A stretch of DNA of 64,000 nucleotides from an uncultured Opitutaceae bacterium (GTDB taxonomy: Bacteria > Verrucomicrobiota > Verrucomicrobiia > Opitutales > Opitutaceae). Below, piece after piece: positions 52,947 through 58,137 of the stretch (the first letter of the stretch is position 1; each line of letters begins with the position of its first letter). The position numbers were made by a program, and so were the translations under genes. The notes under the pieces were generated by a model. That model was not told the DNA's origin. It made no database searches and saw only the letters and a program-made list of their open reading frames with translations. The stretch covers positions 248,001-312,000 of the forward strand of contig CALFNN010000103.1 in NCBI GenBank assembly GCA_937902925.1, given 5' to 3'.

Positions 52947-53678
52947 TCAGATCTTTTTCAGGGCGAGCAGCGTCCGGTGGAGCTGCACGGCCCGCTGCAG
53001 GACGGCATCGATGGGTGGCGCGGGCAGTTTGAGCTTGGCCGACTTGGCGTCGTCGGGGAGACCGGGCGGCTCGATCGCCGCGATCCGGTCGACCGGCGCG
53101 GCGCGGTTGGGCGGTCCCTCGGCGCTGTCGGCCGGAGCGCTGTCCGGTCCACGATCCCGCGCGAGTTGCGCCTCGTCGTTGCGGGGTTTGTCGACGTTTT
53201 CGACGAGCAGGGAGTCGATGGCGGCCCCGGTCTCGAGCGCGTCGTAGGCGCGGCGCTCGGCGTCGCGGGAAGTCCGGACCGCGATGTCGGGATTGAAACC
53301 GGGGGCCGCCGCGCCGAGGAGGACAACGCTCCCGGCGGAATCGCGGCCGAGGAAGGGCGCGAGCAAGGCATGGCTGGTGTCCGAATTGGCGAGGACGAAG
53401 ACCGGGGCGCGGGGCGTGGCGTTGAATTTCAACCAGGCGGCGAGGGTGGCCGCCGCCGTGGAGTCGCCGTGCACGTAACGCAGATCGAGCACGCTCGGCT
53501 GCTGGCGGCCGGACCCCGCGGCGGGCAGATCCTCCGGCAGCATGTGGACCCGATGATAGAGGAGGCCGCGTCCGAGATCGCGATCGAGTCCACCTGCGGG
53601 AACCGGGATCGGGGCTGCGCCCGGGCTGGAGGCGGCGAATGCGGTGAGGAAAACGAAAAACGAGAAAAGTTCTTTCAT
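52947..53678 (-). CDS. hypothetical secreted protein
   Basis: The 243-residue product has a signal peptide (FFVFLTAFAASSPGAAP, cleavage near 22). The remainder contains GRGLLYHRVHMLPEDLP, PSVLDLRYVHGD, FVLANSDTSHALLAPFLGRDSAGSVVLLGAAAPGF and a charged C-terminal tail; the central part resembles an alpha/beta fold with S41 peptidase-like strand order (LDLRYVHGD...VFVLANSDTS), but no catalytic set is visible. I cannot assign a family. Its ATG overlaps the purD stop by 4 nt (53675-53678), so it is coupled to purD. Confidence 0.75.
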   Translation of the reverse strand: MKELFSFFVFLTAFAASSPGAAPIPVPAGGLDRDLGRGLLYHRVHMLPEDLPAAGSGRQQPSVLDLRYVHGDSTAAATLAAWLKFNATPRAPVFVLANSDTSHALLAPFLGRDSAGSVVLLGAAAPGFNPDIAVRTSRDAERRAYDALETGAAIDSLLVENVDKPRNDEAQLARDRGPDSAPADSAEGPPNRAAPVDRIAAIEPPGLPDDAKSAKLKLPAPPIDAVLQRAVQLHRTLLALKKI

Positions 53679-54967
53679 CGGCGGTGGAGTTCGCGGGCGC
53701 CGATGTCGCGGCGGAAATATTTGCTGGCGCACTGGATTTGGTCGCAGACCGCGTAGGCGCGAGCGGCGGCGGCGCGAAGCGTGGGCGCGAGGGCGGTGAC
53801 GCCGAGCACGCGGCCGCCGTGGGTGACGACCCGACCGGAGGAATTCTTCGCCGTGCCGGCGTGGATGATCGAGACACCCGACGGGAGCGGAGAGGGAAGC
53901 GTGATGGCGTCGCCCTTGGGATAATTTTCCGGGTAGCCCTTCGCCGCGATGACCACGCAGAGCGCATGGTCGGGCTTCACGGCGAGCTGGGTGCCGGCGA
54001 GTTCGCCGCGGGCGGCGGCCCAGAGCACGGCGAGCAGATCGGTGGCGAGGCGCGGGAGCACCACCTGGGTCTCGGGATCGCCGAAGCGGGTGTTGAACTC
54101 GATCACGCTCGGGCCGTCGGGCGTCAGCATCAGTCCGATGAACAGTGTGCCGCGAAAATCGATGCCCGCGGCGGCGATGGCGTCGACGGACGGGCGGACG
54201 ATTTCGCGCTCGATGCGGTCGAGCAACGCGGGCGTGACCACGCCGGCGGGCGAGTAGGCGCCCATGCCGCCGGTGTTCGGGCCGGTGTCGCCCTCGCCGA
54301 TGCGCTTGTGGTCCTGCGAAGTGGGAAGAATCACGTAATCGCGTCCCGACACGACAACCAGGAGGGAGGTTTCCTCGCCGACGAGACAATCCTCGATCAG
54401 GAGCTGCCGGCCGGCGGCGCCGAATTTTTCGCCGGCGAGCATGTCGTGCACCGCGGTCTCCGCCTCGGCCAGCGTCGGCGCGACGACCACGCCCTTGCCC
54501 GCGGCGAGACCGTCGGCCTTGACGACGATGGGCGCGCCGCGCGTTTTCAGATAAGCGAGGGCGGGGGCGACTTCACTGAAAATACCGGCCGCGGCGGTGG
54601 GAATCTTGTTTTTGAGCAGGAGTTGCTTGGTGAAAATCTTCGAGGCCTCGAGGCGGGCGCCGTCGGCCTTCGGGCCGTAAACGGGGATGCCGGCGGCGAG
54701 GAGCCGGTCGGCGAGGCCGAGGGAGAGCGGGACCTCGGGACCGACGACGACGAACTCGATTTTCTCGCGTTGCGCGAGCGCGACGAGACCGGCGATGTCG
54801 TCGGCGGCGACGGGGAAGCACGCGACTTCGTCTGCGATGCCGGCGTTGCCCGGAGCGCAGATGATGCGCGGCCTGGCGGGCGACGCCAGCAGCGCGCGGA
54901 CCAGCGCATGTTCACGGCCGCCGGAACCGACGACGAGGATGGACGAGGGAAGAGTGGTGGGGGGCAC
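53675..54967 (-). CDS. purD: phosphoribosylamine-glycine ligase
   Basis: The 430-residue product starts at GTG 54967 (VPPTTLPSSILVVGSGGREHALVRALL). It has the N-terminal SGGREHAL, ICAPGNAGIAD, FVVVGPEVPLSLGLAD, the ATP-grasp PIVVKADGLAAGKGVVVA, QDHKRIGEGDTGPNTGGMGAYSP and VIEFNTRFGDPETQVVLPRL. It makes glycinamide ribonucleotide in purine synthesis. Eight nucleotides separate it from the small upstream gene, and it overlaps the following hypothetical gene; the set is one operon. Confidence 0.97.
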   Translation of the reverse strand: MPPTTLPSSILVVGSGGREHALVRALLASPARPRIICAPGNAGIADEVACFPVAADDIAGLVALAQREKIEFVVVGPEVPLSLGLADRLLAAGIPVYGPKADGARLEASKIFTKQLLLKNKIPTAAAGIFSEVAPALAYLKTRGAPIVVKADGLAAGKGVVVAPTLAEAETAVHDMLAGEKFGAAGRQLLIEDCLVGEETSLLVVVSGRDYVILPTSQDHKRIGEGDTGPNTGGMGAYSPAGVVTPALLDRIEREIVRPSVDAIAAAGIDFRGTLFIGLMLTPDGPSVIEFNTRFGDPETQVVLPRLATDLLAVLWAAARGELAGTQLAVKPDHALCVVIAAKGYPENYPKGDAITLPSPLPSGVSIIHAGTAKNSSGRVVTHGGRVLGVTALAPTLRAAAARAYAVCDQIQCASKYFRRDIGARELHRR

Positions 54968-54975
54968 GAGGGAAG

Positions 54976-55221
54976 TCAGTAGCCGCGCGCGGCGACGAGC
55001 ACGTCGCGCCAGTCGGTCTTGGCCATTTTGAGATGCGTGTGAAACTGTCCGAGGTCGCCGTGCGAGAGGTGGAGAATCGCGAAATGCACGCTTTCGGCGT
55101 TGCTGCCGGCGAGCGGAAAATCGGCGTCCGCCAGCCCGGCGCAAACGACGGCGACTTCGGCCGGCGGAAACAATTCCTCCGCCCGCTGGCGCACGTCGGG
55201 AGTCACGGCGACTTTCATCAT
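54976..55221 (-). CDS. small hypothetical protein
   Basis: The 81-residue product (ATGATG at 55216-55221, either start possible) has no recognised domain. It contains FPPAEVAVVCAGLADADFPLAGSNAESVHFAILHLSHGDLGQFHTHLKMAKTDWRDVLVAARGY, a compact alpha/beta-like sequence with a His-rich LSHGDLGQFHTHLKMAKTDWRD segment. It is cytosolic in appearance. It lies 13 nt downstream of the LOG-like gene and 8 nt upstream of purD, so it is part of the same transcript. Conserved-gene status cannot be shown from this window alone. Confidence 0.7.
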   Translation of the reverse strand: MMKVAVTPDVRQRAEELFPPAEVAVVCAGLADADFPLAGSNAESVHFAILHLSHGDLGQFHTHLKMAKTDWRDVLVAARGY

Positions 55222-55234
55222 CCGGAATACGGCG

Positions 55235-57142
55235 TCAGAGCACCTGGAGTTTCTTGCGGTAGAACTCGACGACCTCGTCGGGACTGTCGGTGAAGAGGAT
55301 GTAGTCGGCCATCCAGGCGGGCGCGCGCTTCGTGGCGATCATGTGGCGGACCTGCTTGCGGAGGTCGCCCCAGAATTTGGCGTTGAAGAAAATGTAGGGC
55401 ACGCGCGGACGGATGCCGAGCTTGAGATTGCAGAGCTCGATGCCGATCTCCTCGAGGGTGCCGACGCCGCCGACGTTGAAGATGCAGAAATCCGCCGACT
55501 CGAACCATTTTTGCCGGAAGTGGCGGGACGATTCCTGGAACGTGTTGAAGAAGTCGACGCCGAGCTCGGGCGGCTGGGCCTCGAGCTCGAGGAAGCACGC
55601 GCCGGTGAGCGCGCCTTTCTGGCGGGCCTGGTCGGTGGCGAGGCGCATCACGCCGCCGCCGCCGCCGGTGAGCACGCCGAGGTTGTGGCCGATGAACGTC
55701 GTGAGCTTGTCGACGAGCGACGAGATGCGGTCGGTGTCGGCCTGGTCGAGGCCGACGGCGGAACCGTAGAACGCGAGAATCGTGGACTCCTGGAACTTGC
55801 GTCCCATCTCCTCGCGGACGAAGAAGCCGTGGTCCTTCTTGTAGACGTGGGTGTAGAGCTCCTTCGTGAGCTCGTCGAACCAGTGGACCTGGAGGCCCAT
55901 CGCGTCGAGCATGTCGAGGCGCGCGTGGGCGTTGCTCGAGAGGAAATAGCCGTGGGTGCGGGATGCCTTGCGGAAGACGATCCGCTTGAGCTTCACGTCG
56001 CCGAGGCGCGTCACGAGTTCGATGTGCTCGAGGAGGTCGGGAAAGTAGTCGAGCACGAGCGTGTCGGCGTTGTCCGGGGCGCCGTCGAGCGCCTGGATCA
56101 TCGTGCGGTGGCCGACGGGGCAGGCGTCCTCCTCGAGGACCTTTTTCAGATCCTCGTTGGCGCGGACGAGGACGCAGCGGTTTTCCATCGAGCCGCTCTG
56201 GCCGCGGACGGTGATCTTGGTCTTGGGACGCGCGTCGCCGCTGTCGTGGGCGGGGCGGTCGTCGAGGCAGTGGTAGAGGTCGGTGGCGGTGGCGAGGAGG
56301 CGCTGGCGCTTTTTGGTGAGGGTCTTGAACTCGGGATCCGCGGCGTCAGGCGCGCGGAAAATCTCGACCGAGACGACCGGGTTGACCACGGGCTGGTCGC
56401 CGGTGTTGTAGATCTCGAGCATGATGTTCGTGCCGAAAGTCTTGATCGGGTCGAGCAGCACGGCGCTGGTGTGGATGCCGAAGTTGCCCTCGCCCTGGTT
56501 GAGCACGACAAAGTGCTCCTTGAGATACATCGAGCAGCTGGTGAGGATGCCCGAGCGCGGCGGGATGGTGAGCGGCGAACACTCGTGGCGGACCTGCACC
56601 TGGTCGAGATAGCCGCGGCCAGCGTTGCCGCTGACGATGCGCTCGAAGTTCGCCCGCTGCAGCTTGTGGTTGAGCGTGTAGCTGACGCCGTGCGGGGTGA
56701 GAAACACGCGGCCGAGGCGGTCGATGCTGATGGTGTTGGGCAGCTTGAGCCGGTTTTCCTTGATGGCGTCCCAGATCTCGCCGGTGGTGAGCTTGGCGGT
56801 GGCCGGCGCGTAATACAGGCGGCCGATGGGCGAGCCGACCCGGAGGAGCTTCTTCCAGTAGGGCGCGTTGGGAAAACTGGGGTCGAAGATGAACGCATCG
56901 GCCTCGAGTTCGAGCCGGTTGCCCTCCACGTGCGGGCTGCCATGGGTCAGCATCTCTATGCCAATGCGCGCCATGGAGCTGCGCTCGGAGAACTTGAGGG
57001 AGGCGAGCTGGGATTTGAGGAAATCGAACTCGACCGGATTGCGGGGCCAGAAAGCGAGGGTCAGGGTGACGGTCTGCTCATCCTTGTTCTTAACGGTGAG
57101 GATCTGGCCGTCCTGACTGACCCAGAATTGATCGGCATTCAT
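55235..57142 (-). CDS. two-part protein: possible dUTPase-like segment plus LOG-like nucleotide-binding domain
   Basis: The 635-residue product ends in a LOG-like domain (about 445-635): ILAFYGSAVGL, GVLTGGGGGVMRLATDQAR and FNVGGVGTLEEIGIEL, which corresponds to the PGGxGTxxE motif of LOG/lysine-decarboxylase-like proteins (here VGGVGTLEE). LOG enzymes release cytokinin bases from their 5'-monophosphates or act on other nucleotides. Residues about 190-265 (PPRSGILTSCSMYL, GIHTSAVLLDPIKTFGTNIMLEIYN, PVVNPVVSVEIF) resemble the dCTP deaminase/dUTPase beta-fold: a phosphate-side Ser, a GxxxT then DP and a strand with E. Residues 320-445 are unrecognised. The catalytic order of dUTPases is not fully met, so this is inference. 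It heads the transcript leading to purD and glyA. Confidence 0.8.
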   Translation of the reverse strand: MNADQFWVSQDGQILTVKNKDEQTVTLTLAFWPRNPVEFDFLKSQLASLKFSERSSMARIGIEMLTHGSPHVEGNRLELEADAFIFDPSFPNAPYWKKLLRVGSPIGRLYYAPATAKLTTGEIWDAIKENRLKLPNTISIDRLGRVFLTPHGVSYTLNHKLQRANFERIVSGNAGRGYLDQVQVRHECSPLTIPPRSGILTSCSMYLKEHFVVLNQGEGNFGIHTSAVLLDPIKTFGTNIMLEIYNTGDQPVVNPVVSVEIFRAPDAADPEFKTLTKKRQRLLATATDLYHCLDDRPAHDSGDARPKTKITVRGQSGSMENRCVLVRANEDLKKVLEEDACPVGHRTMIQALDGAPDNADTLVLDYFPDLLEHIELVTRLGDVKLKRIVFRKASRTHGYFLSSNAHARLDMLDAMGLQVHWFDELTKELYTHVYKKDHGFFVREEMGRKFQESTILAFYGSAVGLDQADTDRISSLVDKLTTFIGHNLGVLTGGGGGVMRLATDQARQKGALTGACFLELEAQPPELGVDFFNTFQESSRHFRQKWFESADFCIFNVGGVGTLEEIGIELCNLKLGIRPRVPYIFFNAKFWGDLRKQVRHMIATKRAPAWMADYILFTDSPDEVVEFYRKKLQVL

Positions 57143-57293
57143 GAAGGGAAAGGGTCACGTCATGGCGGATCGCGGGGGCCGACACAAGCGGGGAGTAATT
57201 GGTTGCATTCGGGGCGGGGCGCTGGCAGACCCGGCAACTTTTACGGCACAAAATGCCGTCCACCGTTACTCTCCTCTGTCCTAATCCCAACGC

Positions 57294-58109
57294 ATGAAAC
57301 TTACACACACCCTCACGATTTCCCTGCTTGCGCTCGGCCTCGCCGCGGCGCGTGCGCAGGAAGTCAAATTAAACGTCCCGGGCGAGCCCGCCACGCCGGC
57401 GCCCGCCGGTTCCGCGGCGCCCGCCGCCGCGCCCGCCCCGGCCGCCGTCTATCCCGACGCCCAGCTCGTCGAGGAATTCGGCTGGTTCATGGGCAAGCGC
57501 GTCGGGCTCACCGAGCTCGAATTCAACAAGACCGAGGTCGACGCCTTCCTGAAGGGCATCTCCGCCGCTGCCGCCGGCAAGGACTCGCCCTACGAGTTGG
57601 AAAAGATCGGCCCGGCCATGGACGAGTTCATGCAGAAAAAGCAGGGCGCATATCTGGCCAAGCTGAAGGATCAGAACAACGCGGCGAACACGGCGTTCTT
57701 CGCGAAGCTGAAGGAAAACAAGAACGTGGTCGAGCTGCCGAGCGGCCTGCGCTACGAGATTGTCAAGCCGGGCGACGGCGCCTATCCGAAGCCGACCGAC
57801 ACCGTGAAGGTGCACTACACCGGCACGCTGCTCGACGGCACGGTCTTCGACAGCTCGGTGCAGCGCGGCGAGCCGGCGGAGTTCCCGCTCGACCAGGTGA
57901 TCCCCGGCTGGACCGAGGGCATCCAAAAGATCAACAAGGGCGGCAAGATCAAACTCTACGTCCCGCCGCACCTCGGCTATGGCGACGAGGGCAACCAGAA
58001 GATCCCGCCCGGCTCGACGCTCGTGTTCGATGTCGAGTTGCTCGACGTGCACCCGACCCCGCCCCCGCCGGCGACGCCGCCGCCCGCCGCGGCCCCGGAC
58101 GCGAAGTAA
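57294..58109 (+). CDS. FKBP-type peptidyl-prolyl isomerase (FkpA/Mip-like)
   Basis: The 271-residue product has a signal peptide (ISLLALGLAAARAQE, cleavage near 21), a Pro/Ala-rich linker, an N-terminal dimerisation helix region (about 55-145: ELEFNKTEVDAFLKGI..., IGPAMDEFMQKKQGAYL) and a C-terminal FKBP domain (about 152-255): LPSGLRYEIVKPGDGAYPKPTDTVKVHYTGTLLDGTVFDSS, FPLDQVIPGWTEGIQ, YVPPHLGYGDEG, IPPGSTLVFDVELLDV. All common active-site residues (Y, F, D, F, V, I, W, Y-like) are represented. It folds periplasmic proteins. The C-terminus is Pro/Ala-rich. Its terminator follows at 58138. Confidence 0.96.
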   Translation: MKLTHTLTISLLALGLAAARAQEVKLNVPGEPATPAPAGSAAPAAAPAPAAVYPDAQLVEEFGWFMGKRVGLTELEFNKTEVDAFLKGISAAAAGKDSPYELEKIGPAMDEFMQKKQGAYLAKLKDQNNAANTAFFAKLKENKNVVELPSGLRYEIVKPGDGAYPKPTDTVKVHYTGTLLDGTVFDSSVQRGEPAEFPLDQVIPGWTEGIQKINKGGKIKLYVPPHLGYGDEGNQKIPPGSTLVFDVELLDVHPTPPPPATPPPAAAPDAK

Positions 58110-58137
58110 GCGCCGGATAAAACGATTCCGCCAACGA

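Follow-up and report, generated by a model that had tools for sequence, protein, structure and literature searches.

A Fusion Protein of Opitutaceae Joining Tandem DCD-Like Barrels to a LOG-Like Domain

Introduction

The 64,000-nucleotide stretch of DNA analyzed here (hereafter the window) comes from an uncultured bacterium of the Opitutaceae (GenBank assembly GCA_937902925.1, contig CALFNN010000103.1) and carries, at 55235..57142 on the minus strand, a gene for a 635-residue fusion protein. Two barrels resembling dCTP deaminase (DCD), an α/β domain, and a C-terminal LOG domain follow one another in this protein, as they do in its full-length relatives. A sequence-only reading of the window had held that no characterized protein was known to have this order of domains, and the papers listed in searches of the open-licence literature, judged from titles and the openings of abstracts, do not contradict that claim. 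No Pfam or NCBIfam model was found that covers the protein as a whole, and the fusion protein is a new architecture assembled from known parts.

The Gene and Its Domain Layout

The open reading frame (ORF) of the fusion protein is not a chance frame, since its relatives align along the full length with 49-86% identity. The plus-strand reading of 55235-57142 was rejected as an antisense frame, the true ORF being on the minus strand. An antisense ORF of 1006 residues (window 55100-58120, plus strand) spans the fusion gene and beyond, which is probably an effect of high G+C content. The start codon is credible, because the relatives align from residue 1-3 and because F6, W7, S9, D11, and G12 are invariant in a 24-sequence alignment. 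Conservation was otherwise counted in an alignment of 125 rows holding 124 distinct sequences, the window's own being present twice (as the window and as locus L001).

On the minus strand, barrel 1 comprises residues 1-117 (56792..57142) and barrel 2 residues 118-266 (56345..56791), as delimited by hhalign against a DCD alignment and by matches of the AlphaFold model to the structures 2r9q and 2qlp, respectively. Residues 267-316 (56195..56344) form a variable linker, for which secondary structure prediction gives one long helix (271-295); none of its 50 positions is invariant. An α/β domain without a Pfam family follows at residues 317-452 (55787..56194), showing a weak likeness to the cytidine-deaminase fold without the zinc motifs, and the LOG phosphoribohydrolase-like domain occupies residues 453-635 (55238..55786). 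A Pfam search of the window protein with E allowed up to 1 gave nothing in residues 1-450, and single members of the alignments gave scattered weak Pfam matches outside the LOG domain, at E 0.014 or worse. The full-length AlphaFold model has a predicted local distance difference test (pLDDT) score of 72 and a predicted template modelling (pTM) score of 0.62, with residues 199-206 and 217-241 below a pLDDT of 50.

The LOG Domain

PF03641 (LOG) is matched at residues 543-626 with 37.4 bits against a Pfam cut-off of 27, and it is the sole family above its cut-off in the protein. The SLOG family is matched below its threshold, and both families were matched by 40 of 40 alignment members at E up to 1; the curated cut-off of TIGR00730 was not reached (34.6 bits vs 96.35). 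The top single-sequence match in the PDB is the type-II LOG 5wq3 (E 9.8e-8), the full-length AlphaFold model matches PDB LOGs at Z about 16, and its Foldseek list is headed by 1wek and 5wq3. The LOG-like C terminus that had been proposed from sequence alone is thus borne out by family, sequence, and model matches, and the motifs named for it were all located in the 635-residue product (GSAVGL at 460-465, LTGGGGGVMR at 491-500, and VGGVGTLEEI at 557-566).

The LOG domain of the fusion protein is nearest to the type-II LOGs. CgLOGII (5wq3) and TT1465 (1wek) are its best PDB and Foldseek matches and their catalytic residues are kept, although these chains are about 210-265 residues long and carry PGGxGTxxE, whereas the fusion protein has the proline replaced and about 450 residues before the domain. 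In CgLOGII, a change of R155, K156, T175, or E178 to alanine abolished activity (PMC5379747). None of the 125 rows departs from the counterparts R543, K545 (or Q544), T562, and E565; the Arg-Lys pair was placed in register by eye, because the loop length differs from that of CgLOGII. The pair lies in RHFRQK at residues 540-545 (55508..55525, minus strand), where R543 is the probable catalytic arginine beside the substrate lysine region and where R540, R543, Q544, and K545 are all invariant in the 125 rows. The other two counterparts lie in VGGVGTLEEIGIE at residues 557-569 (55436..55474, minus strand), in which T562 and E565 correspond to T175 and E178 of CgLOGII. Position 557, the place of the proline, is V in 105, L in 7, M in 7, and T in 3 of the 125 rows, so that P is not among the four commonest residues. 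Across the whole domain, 59 of the 183 positions are invariant. Judging from the LOG matches and the invariant catalytic counterparts, the domain probably works as a nucleotide 5'-monophosphate phosphoribohydrolase.

The DCD-Like Barrels and Their Divided Motif

The two barrels were compared with a reference alignment of 14 dCTP deaminases, namely E. coli Dcd and 13 from Verrucomicrobiota genomes. The alignment of barrel 2 (residues 118-253) with Dcd begins close to the Dcd start and extends to E. coli residue 148 (hhalign score 37.2-37.6, P 2.3e-5 to 2.8e-5), and barrel 1 (residues 54-115) aligns over 52 columns with the stretch of Dcd from RSSLARLG to the core strand (34.4-35.3, P 3.5e-5 to 5e-5). 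In 200 column shuffles each, the maximum was 25.9 vs 37.2 for barrel 2 and 24.6 vs 35.3 for barrel 1, while the reversed profiles scored 14.0 and 14.7 against the DCD alignment and the middle domain scored 14.0. Residues 2-265 of the AlphaFold model match the tandem dCTP deaminase 2r9q chain D (Z 12.1, 212 residues, root-mean-square deviation 5.4), with barrel 2 modelled at low confidence. In addition, residues about 116-267 match the Mycobacterium tuberculosis Dcd:Dut 2qlp at Z 9.6, the model having a pLDDT of 41-76 there, and E. coli Dcd 2j4q is matched at Z 9.4 over a range that runs from residue 116 into the other domains; one E. coli Dcd is in the Foldseek list (E 5.2e-3). Profiles and model together support a tandem DCD-like module in residues 1-266, with a putative, remote similarity to DCD.

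The sequence-only reading had proposed a dUTPase/dCTP-deaminase-like fold for a middle segment of the protein. The likeness is supported by profile and, with low confidence in barrel 2, by the model, and the extent had to be revised, since the similarity begins close to residue 1 and covers two barrels in tandem. In the structural search of the full-length model, the part that includes residues 150-270 gave a DCD-type match, albeit in the low-confidence region, and neither a structure lacking a barrel there nor a Pfam domain over the middle part was found. Matches to Pizza and β-propeller structures at residues about 130-155 were seen in three PDB searches and headed the list in two; these were dismissed as a repeat artefact, in which one short stretch matches designed repeat proteins and none is significant alone.

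The conserved residues of the module fall on two barrels. Residues 54-61 of barrel 1, RSSMARIG (56960..56983, minus strand), correspond to R110, S111, S112, R115, and G117 of E. coli Dcd, and R54, S55, A58, R59, and G61 are invariant in 125 of 125 rows. Residues 224-246 of barrel 2 (56405..56473, minus strand) hold H224, A227, D231, P232, E243, Y245, and N246, all seven invariant in the 125 rows, which correspond in the profile alignment to H121, A124, D128, P129, E138, Y140, and N141 of E. coli Dcd. The glutamate block is not visible in barrel 1, and NQGEGN stands at the place of RSSxxR in barrel 2. The counterparts of RSSxxR, A124, and E138 are thus all present and invariant, yet on two barrels instead of one. 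E. coli Dcd (PF22769) resembles the fusion protein in an alignable barrel 2 and in S111, R115, A124, and E138, taken here to include residues that act in catalysis, and differs from it in having these motifs on one barrel. The C-terminal lid of Dcd (the region of Y171, K178, and Q182) was not found in the fusion protein, in that the alignment ends at E. coli residue 148 and no counterpart was seen by eye. PF22769 stayed below the Pfam cut-off, with no match in the window protein and a best E of 0.07 in 1 of 46 members. The active sites of the DCD superfamily are described as sitting in clefts between subunits, and dTTP allostery is described as known in DCDs (PMC4827122); because such sites lie between subunits, one composite site per barrel pair would be the simplest inference here.

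Two DCD-type barrels per chain, with no RSSxxR in barrel 2 by eye, are also found in the alphaproteobacterial tandem dCTP deaminase (2r9q; PF06559). Six plasmid-borne tandem sequences were compared, three annotated as 2'-deoxycytidine 5'-triphosphate deaminase and three lying in unannotated stretches; for two (L225 and L226), the sequence read included 38 residues that precede the annotated start. Inspected by eye, all six have KSSxGR, similar to RSSxxR, in barrel 1, and an H-x-A-G-x-x-D block with LEV and no RSSxxR in barrel 2, and they differ from the fusion protein in ending in an NYQxQG lid-like stretch. A direct profile link between the fusion protein and the tandem dCTP deaminases was not found (P 0.066, with shuffles scoring as high), and barrel-against-barrel comparison gave none either. 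PF06559 had no match in 46 members at E up to 5, and it was matched in 3 of 288 genomes of the phylum, none of them of the Opitutaceae.

The Middle Domain

Modelled by itself from 60 sequences, the middle domain (residues 317-452) reached a pLDDT of 80 and a pTM of 0.75. Human dCMP deaminase (2w4l) heads its fold matches (Z 6.7, 91 residues, 3.6 Å), and 46 of the 50 matches listed by VIA carry titles of the cytidine-deaminase superfamily (APOBEC3, RibD, guanine and dCMP deaminases, TadA, and others), the other rows being three 3-dehydroquinate dehydratases and one adenylation domain (Z 6.0). With Foldseek, 35 of the 50 rows listed belong to the same superfamily, at a best E of 0.03 and none at E 0.001 or below. 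A phospholipase-D-like fold, an idea formed by eye, may yet apply, although no such entry occurs among the 50 rows listed by either fold search.

Cytidine deaminases carry the zinc motif H/C-A-E ... PCxxC. This motif is absent from the middle-domain sequences, as read in the 24-sequence alignment, and comparison with alignments of dCMP-deaminase-like and other cytidine deaminases gave no profile signal above 100 shuffles each. In relation to the zinc-dependent enzymes (dCMP deaminase, APOBEC, RibD, and TadA), the domain shows a weak, tentative fold likeness, at Z 6.7 or less, and differs in lacking H/C-A-E and PCxxC and any profile match. We take the likeness as a lead only: the domain may resemble a zinc-less cytidine-deaminase fold, and a Z below 8 may reflect a common arrangement alone. 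The sequence-only reading had left residues 320-445 as a third, unrecognized region; it indeed has no Pfam family, and the fold likeness is what can now be added.

Distribution

The full-length protein was found in 24 of 25 same-family genomes by single-sequence search of a 288-genome sample of the phylum, and in 35 of 37 Opitutaceae genomes by profile search of 387 Verrucomicrobiota genomes, in which at most three candidate places per genome were scored. The 350 other Verrucomicrobiota genomes gave no full-length match, their matches lying within residues 441-629, the LOG region; the profile searches covered the Verrucomicrobiota. Among all Opitutaceae genomes examined, a match was obtained in 239 of 252 (162 of 165 of better quality), some of these matches being partial or remnants. 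In a pattern scan of named genomes, the best 80 of 196 relatives were all titled Opitutae, Opitutaceae, or Verrucomicrobia-type.

Two genomes of one genus, G223 and G310, carry eroded copies between the FKBP gene and purD (G223:C1:3284655-3285063 and G310:C10:35860-36264; loci L151 and L152), of which the first 74-107 and the last about 26-33 residues are left, with stops. The loss in these two genomes may be one event. Membership of a phage or defence family was considered and rejected, since PHROGs gave a single match (E 0.14) and PADLOC gave none. Viral contigs gave 24 pattern matches, none of which is a relative; phage records gave two matches at E about 2; and plasmid matches were confined to the LOG region, with a best E of 0.05.

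Gene Neighborhood

The order on the minus strand of the window is the fusion gene, a small ORF, purD, a further ORF, a low-molecular-weight phosphatase gene, and glyA. The purD gene (53675..54967, minus strand; GARS_N/A/C) has a GTG start as inferred from the sequence. It lies on the same strand and at most 3 kb after the fusion gene in 97 of 123 loci, with a median of 128 bases to a point near its start; these loci are unique by gene sequence, have at least 1400 bases downstream, and include the window's own. The small ORF of 81 residues (54976..55221, minus strand) has no Pfam match, and of the 123 loci only two, that of the window and L017, gave a match to it. As the counterpart in L017 stands at the same place with 58% identity (E 8e-25), the small ORF may be a genuine gene of patchy occurrence. 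The ORF at 52947-53700 (minus strand), which separates purD from the low-molecular-weight phosphatase gene, has no Pfam family and no tblastn match in the searched loci.

Upstream and divergent lies a gene for an FKBP-type peptidyl-prolyl isomerase (57294..58109, plus strand; identified by Pfam), and 121 of 126 loci have an FKBP match on the opposite strand; a promoter region shared by the FKBP and fusion genes is possible. The run of a small protein, purD, and glyA, from which a role in purine metabolism had been proposed, is upheld as regards purD and not as regards the small protein, and the purine role is plausible but thin, given the order with purD on the one hand and the rarity of the small ORF on the other.

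Nucleotide Enzymes in the Host Genomes

The genome of the window has no match to Pfam DCD or to dUTPase, other types of dUTPase not having been searched for. In a sample of 25 same-family genomes, in 23 of which the fusion protein is full-length, a DCD above 100 bits occurs in 3 and a dUTPase in 8, and neither in 16, two of which are under 90% complete. The fusion gene is retained beside a true Dcd and/or dUTPase in G389, G397, and G339, and genomes such as G391, G393, and G506 have it but gave no ThyX match. Because it is present both where Dcd, dUTPase, or a ThyX match is found and where they are missing, the fusion protein does not simply replace Dcd or dUTPase.

No match to ThyA was obtained in the window's genome. 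Of the genomes tested for ThyA, the two with eroded copies, G223 and G310, both have it in full; of the seven others, six gave no match and one a partial match. A ThyX-like gene is present in the window's genome (L231 1127-2518, in G000:C59), matched by PF02511 with a weak 42.5 bits; its product, 463 residues from a GTG start, is about twice the usual length of ThyX, and most of the ThyX-family matches listed lie in frames of at least 450 residues. The same genome has a ComEB-like deaminase (120 bits, below the cut-off of 219 bits), which together with the ThyX-like gene is another possible route to dUMP. Its two PF03641 matches are a short LOG and the fusion protein, so that no PpnN was seen.

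Proposed Function and Alternatives

From the LOG domain, the remote DCD similarity, the motif conservation, the retention throughout the family, and the gene order, we infer a composite site, a bound effector, a gate, and a substrate as follows. The C-terminal LOG domain would hydrolyze a nucleoside 5'-monophosphate to the free base and ribose 5-phosphate, a purine nucleotide being likelier than a pyrimidine one. The tandem barrels would form a composite nucleotide site with RSSxAR from barrel 1 and the glutamate block from barrel 2, and the DCD-like module would bind a nucleotide there as an effector and hold the oligomer together. Ligand on this module would gate the LOG site, as the alarmone on accessory domains gates PpnN. 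Binding of an effector seems likelier than normal deamination of dCTP, because the lid that closes over the triphosphate was not found. PpnN (YgdH) also has a LOG-type Rossmann core and extra domains on one chain, and its E. coli entries match the model at Z 13.1-13.7; its core, however, sits between DUF4478 and DUF3412, whereas that of the fusion protein is C-terminal with a DCD-like part before it. The accessory domains of PpnN gate the core upon pppGpp binding (PMC6717881). We tentatively favor the view that the fusion protein is a nucleotide nucleosidase regulated in the manner of PpnN, with a nucleotide-binding DCD-like module as its gate.

Several observations weigh against this view. 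The model of barrel 2 is of low confidence (pLDDT 41-76), and the hhalign probability to DCD is a remote 58-78%, or 46% when the C-terminal part of barrel 2 is compared by itself. The barrels of the tandem enzymes reach 98.9% and 95.8% against the same alignment, and those of the fusion protein are therefore the more diverged. Barrels 1 and 2 do not match each other in profile comparison, as is likewise the case for the barrels of the tandem enzymes, and profile comparison found no likeness to the six tandem sequences. In the latter, barrel 1 also keeps a glutamate strand (..YAE.. or ..YLE.., by eye), so that the division of motifs in the fusion protein is not simply theirs. The complete PGGxGTxxE motif is absent from the LOG domain, the proline being replaced while GG, GT, and the glutamates are invariant in the 125 rows. 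The PpnN accessory domains DUF4478 and DUF3412 were not found by Pfam in the window protein or in 40 members at E up to 1. Finally, the invariant E243, S55, and R59 could equally signal a retained catalytic site.

This last point leads to the main rival, that of a bifunctional enzyme, which earns that place because the matches to S111, R115, A124, and E138 of E. coli Dcd are kept, in 125 of 125 rows. The composite DCD-like site, perhaps without a triphosphate clamp, would deaminate or hydrolyze a C or U nucleotide and the LOG domain would then free the base, in a two-step nucleotide breakdown. The lack of a match to Pfam DCD or dUTPase in the window's genome speaks for such an activity, but the profile alignment ends before the lid, three genomes (G389, G397, and G339) have a true Dcd and/or dUTPase in addition to the fusion protein, and the ComEB-like deaminase and ThyX-like gene offer another possible way to dUMP. 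We consider this enzyme somewhat unlikely. Rather unlikely, in our judgment, is a LOG enzyme with dead scaffolds, in which the barrels and the middle domain would serve oligomer formation alone. DCD-type folds are trimeric (PMC4827122) and type-II LOGs hexameric (PMC5379747), and the middle domain is without the zinc motif; in addition, the tandem enzymes share the division of motifs in part, which makes the gated nucleosidase slightly weaker and the scaffold slightly stronger. A pure scaffold, on the other hand, need not keep the DCD motif residues, which are invariant when no position of the 50-residue linker is. It is very improbable that the fusion protein is a non-orthologous replacement for Dcd or dUTPase, supplying dUMP for thymidylate synthesis where both are missing. 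The 16 of 25 sampled Opitutaceae with neither enzyme (two of them less than 90% complete) fit this idea, as does the full ThyA of the two genomes with only remnants of the gene compared with its absence or partial match in seven others, but the fusion protein co-occurs with Dcd and dUTPase, is found in genomes without a ThyX match, and in the window's genome stands beside a ComEB-like deaminase.

A more specific form of regulation would be nucleotide surveillance, in which the composite site reads the pool of pyrimidine deoxynucleotides and switches a purine-destroying LOG domain via the zinc-less deaminase-like middle domain. We regard this reading as unlikely.

Implications

The fusion protein shows high conservation and was found in nearly all Opitutaceae genomes searched, with no Pfam or NCBIfam model found that covers it whole. 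Should the gated nucleosidase prove true, a family of enzymes that makes deoxynucleoside triphosphates (dNTPs) would have been recruited, with its motifs divided over two barrels, as the accessory module of a nucleotide nucleosidase, and the protein would be a second solution besides PpnN for regulating nucleotide breakdown. If the surveillance reading were true, the status of DNA precursors would be coupled to purine salvage in one chain, and the Opitutaceae would have a family-wide counterpart of PpnN that senses dNTPs instead of ppGpp.

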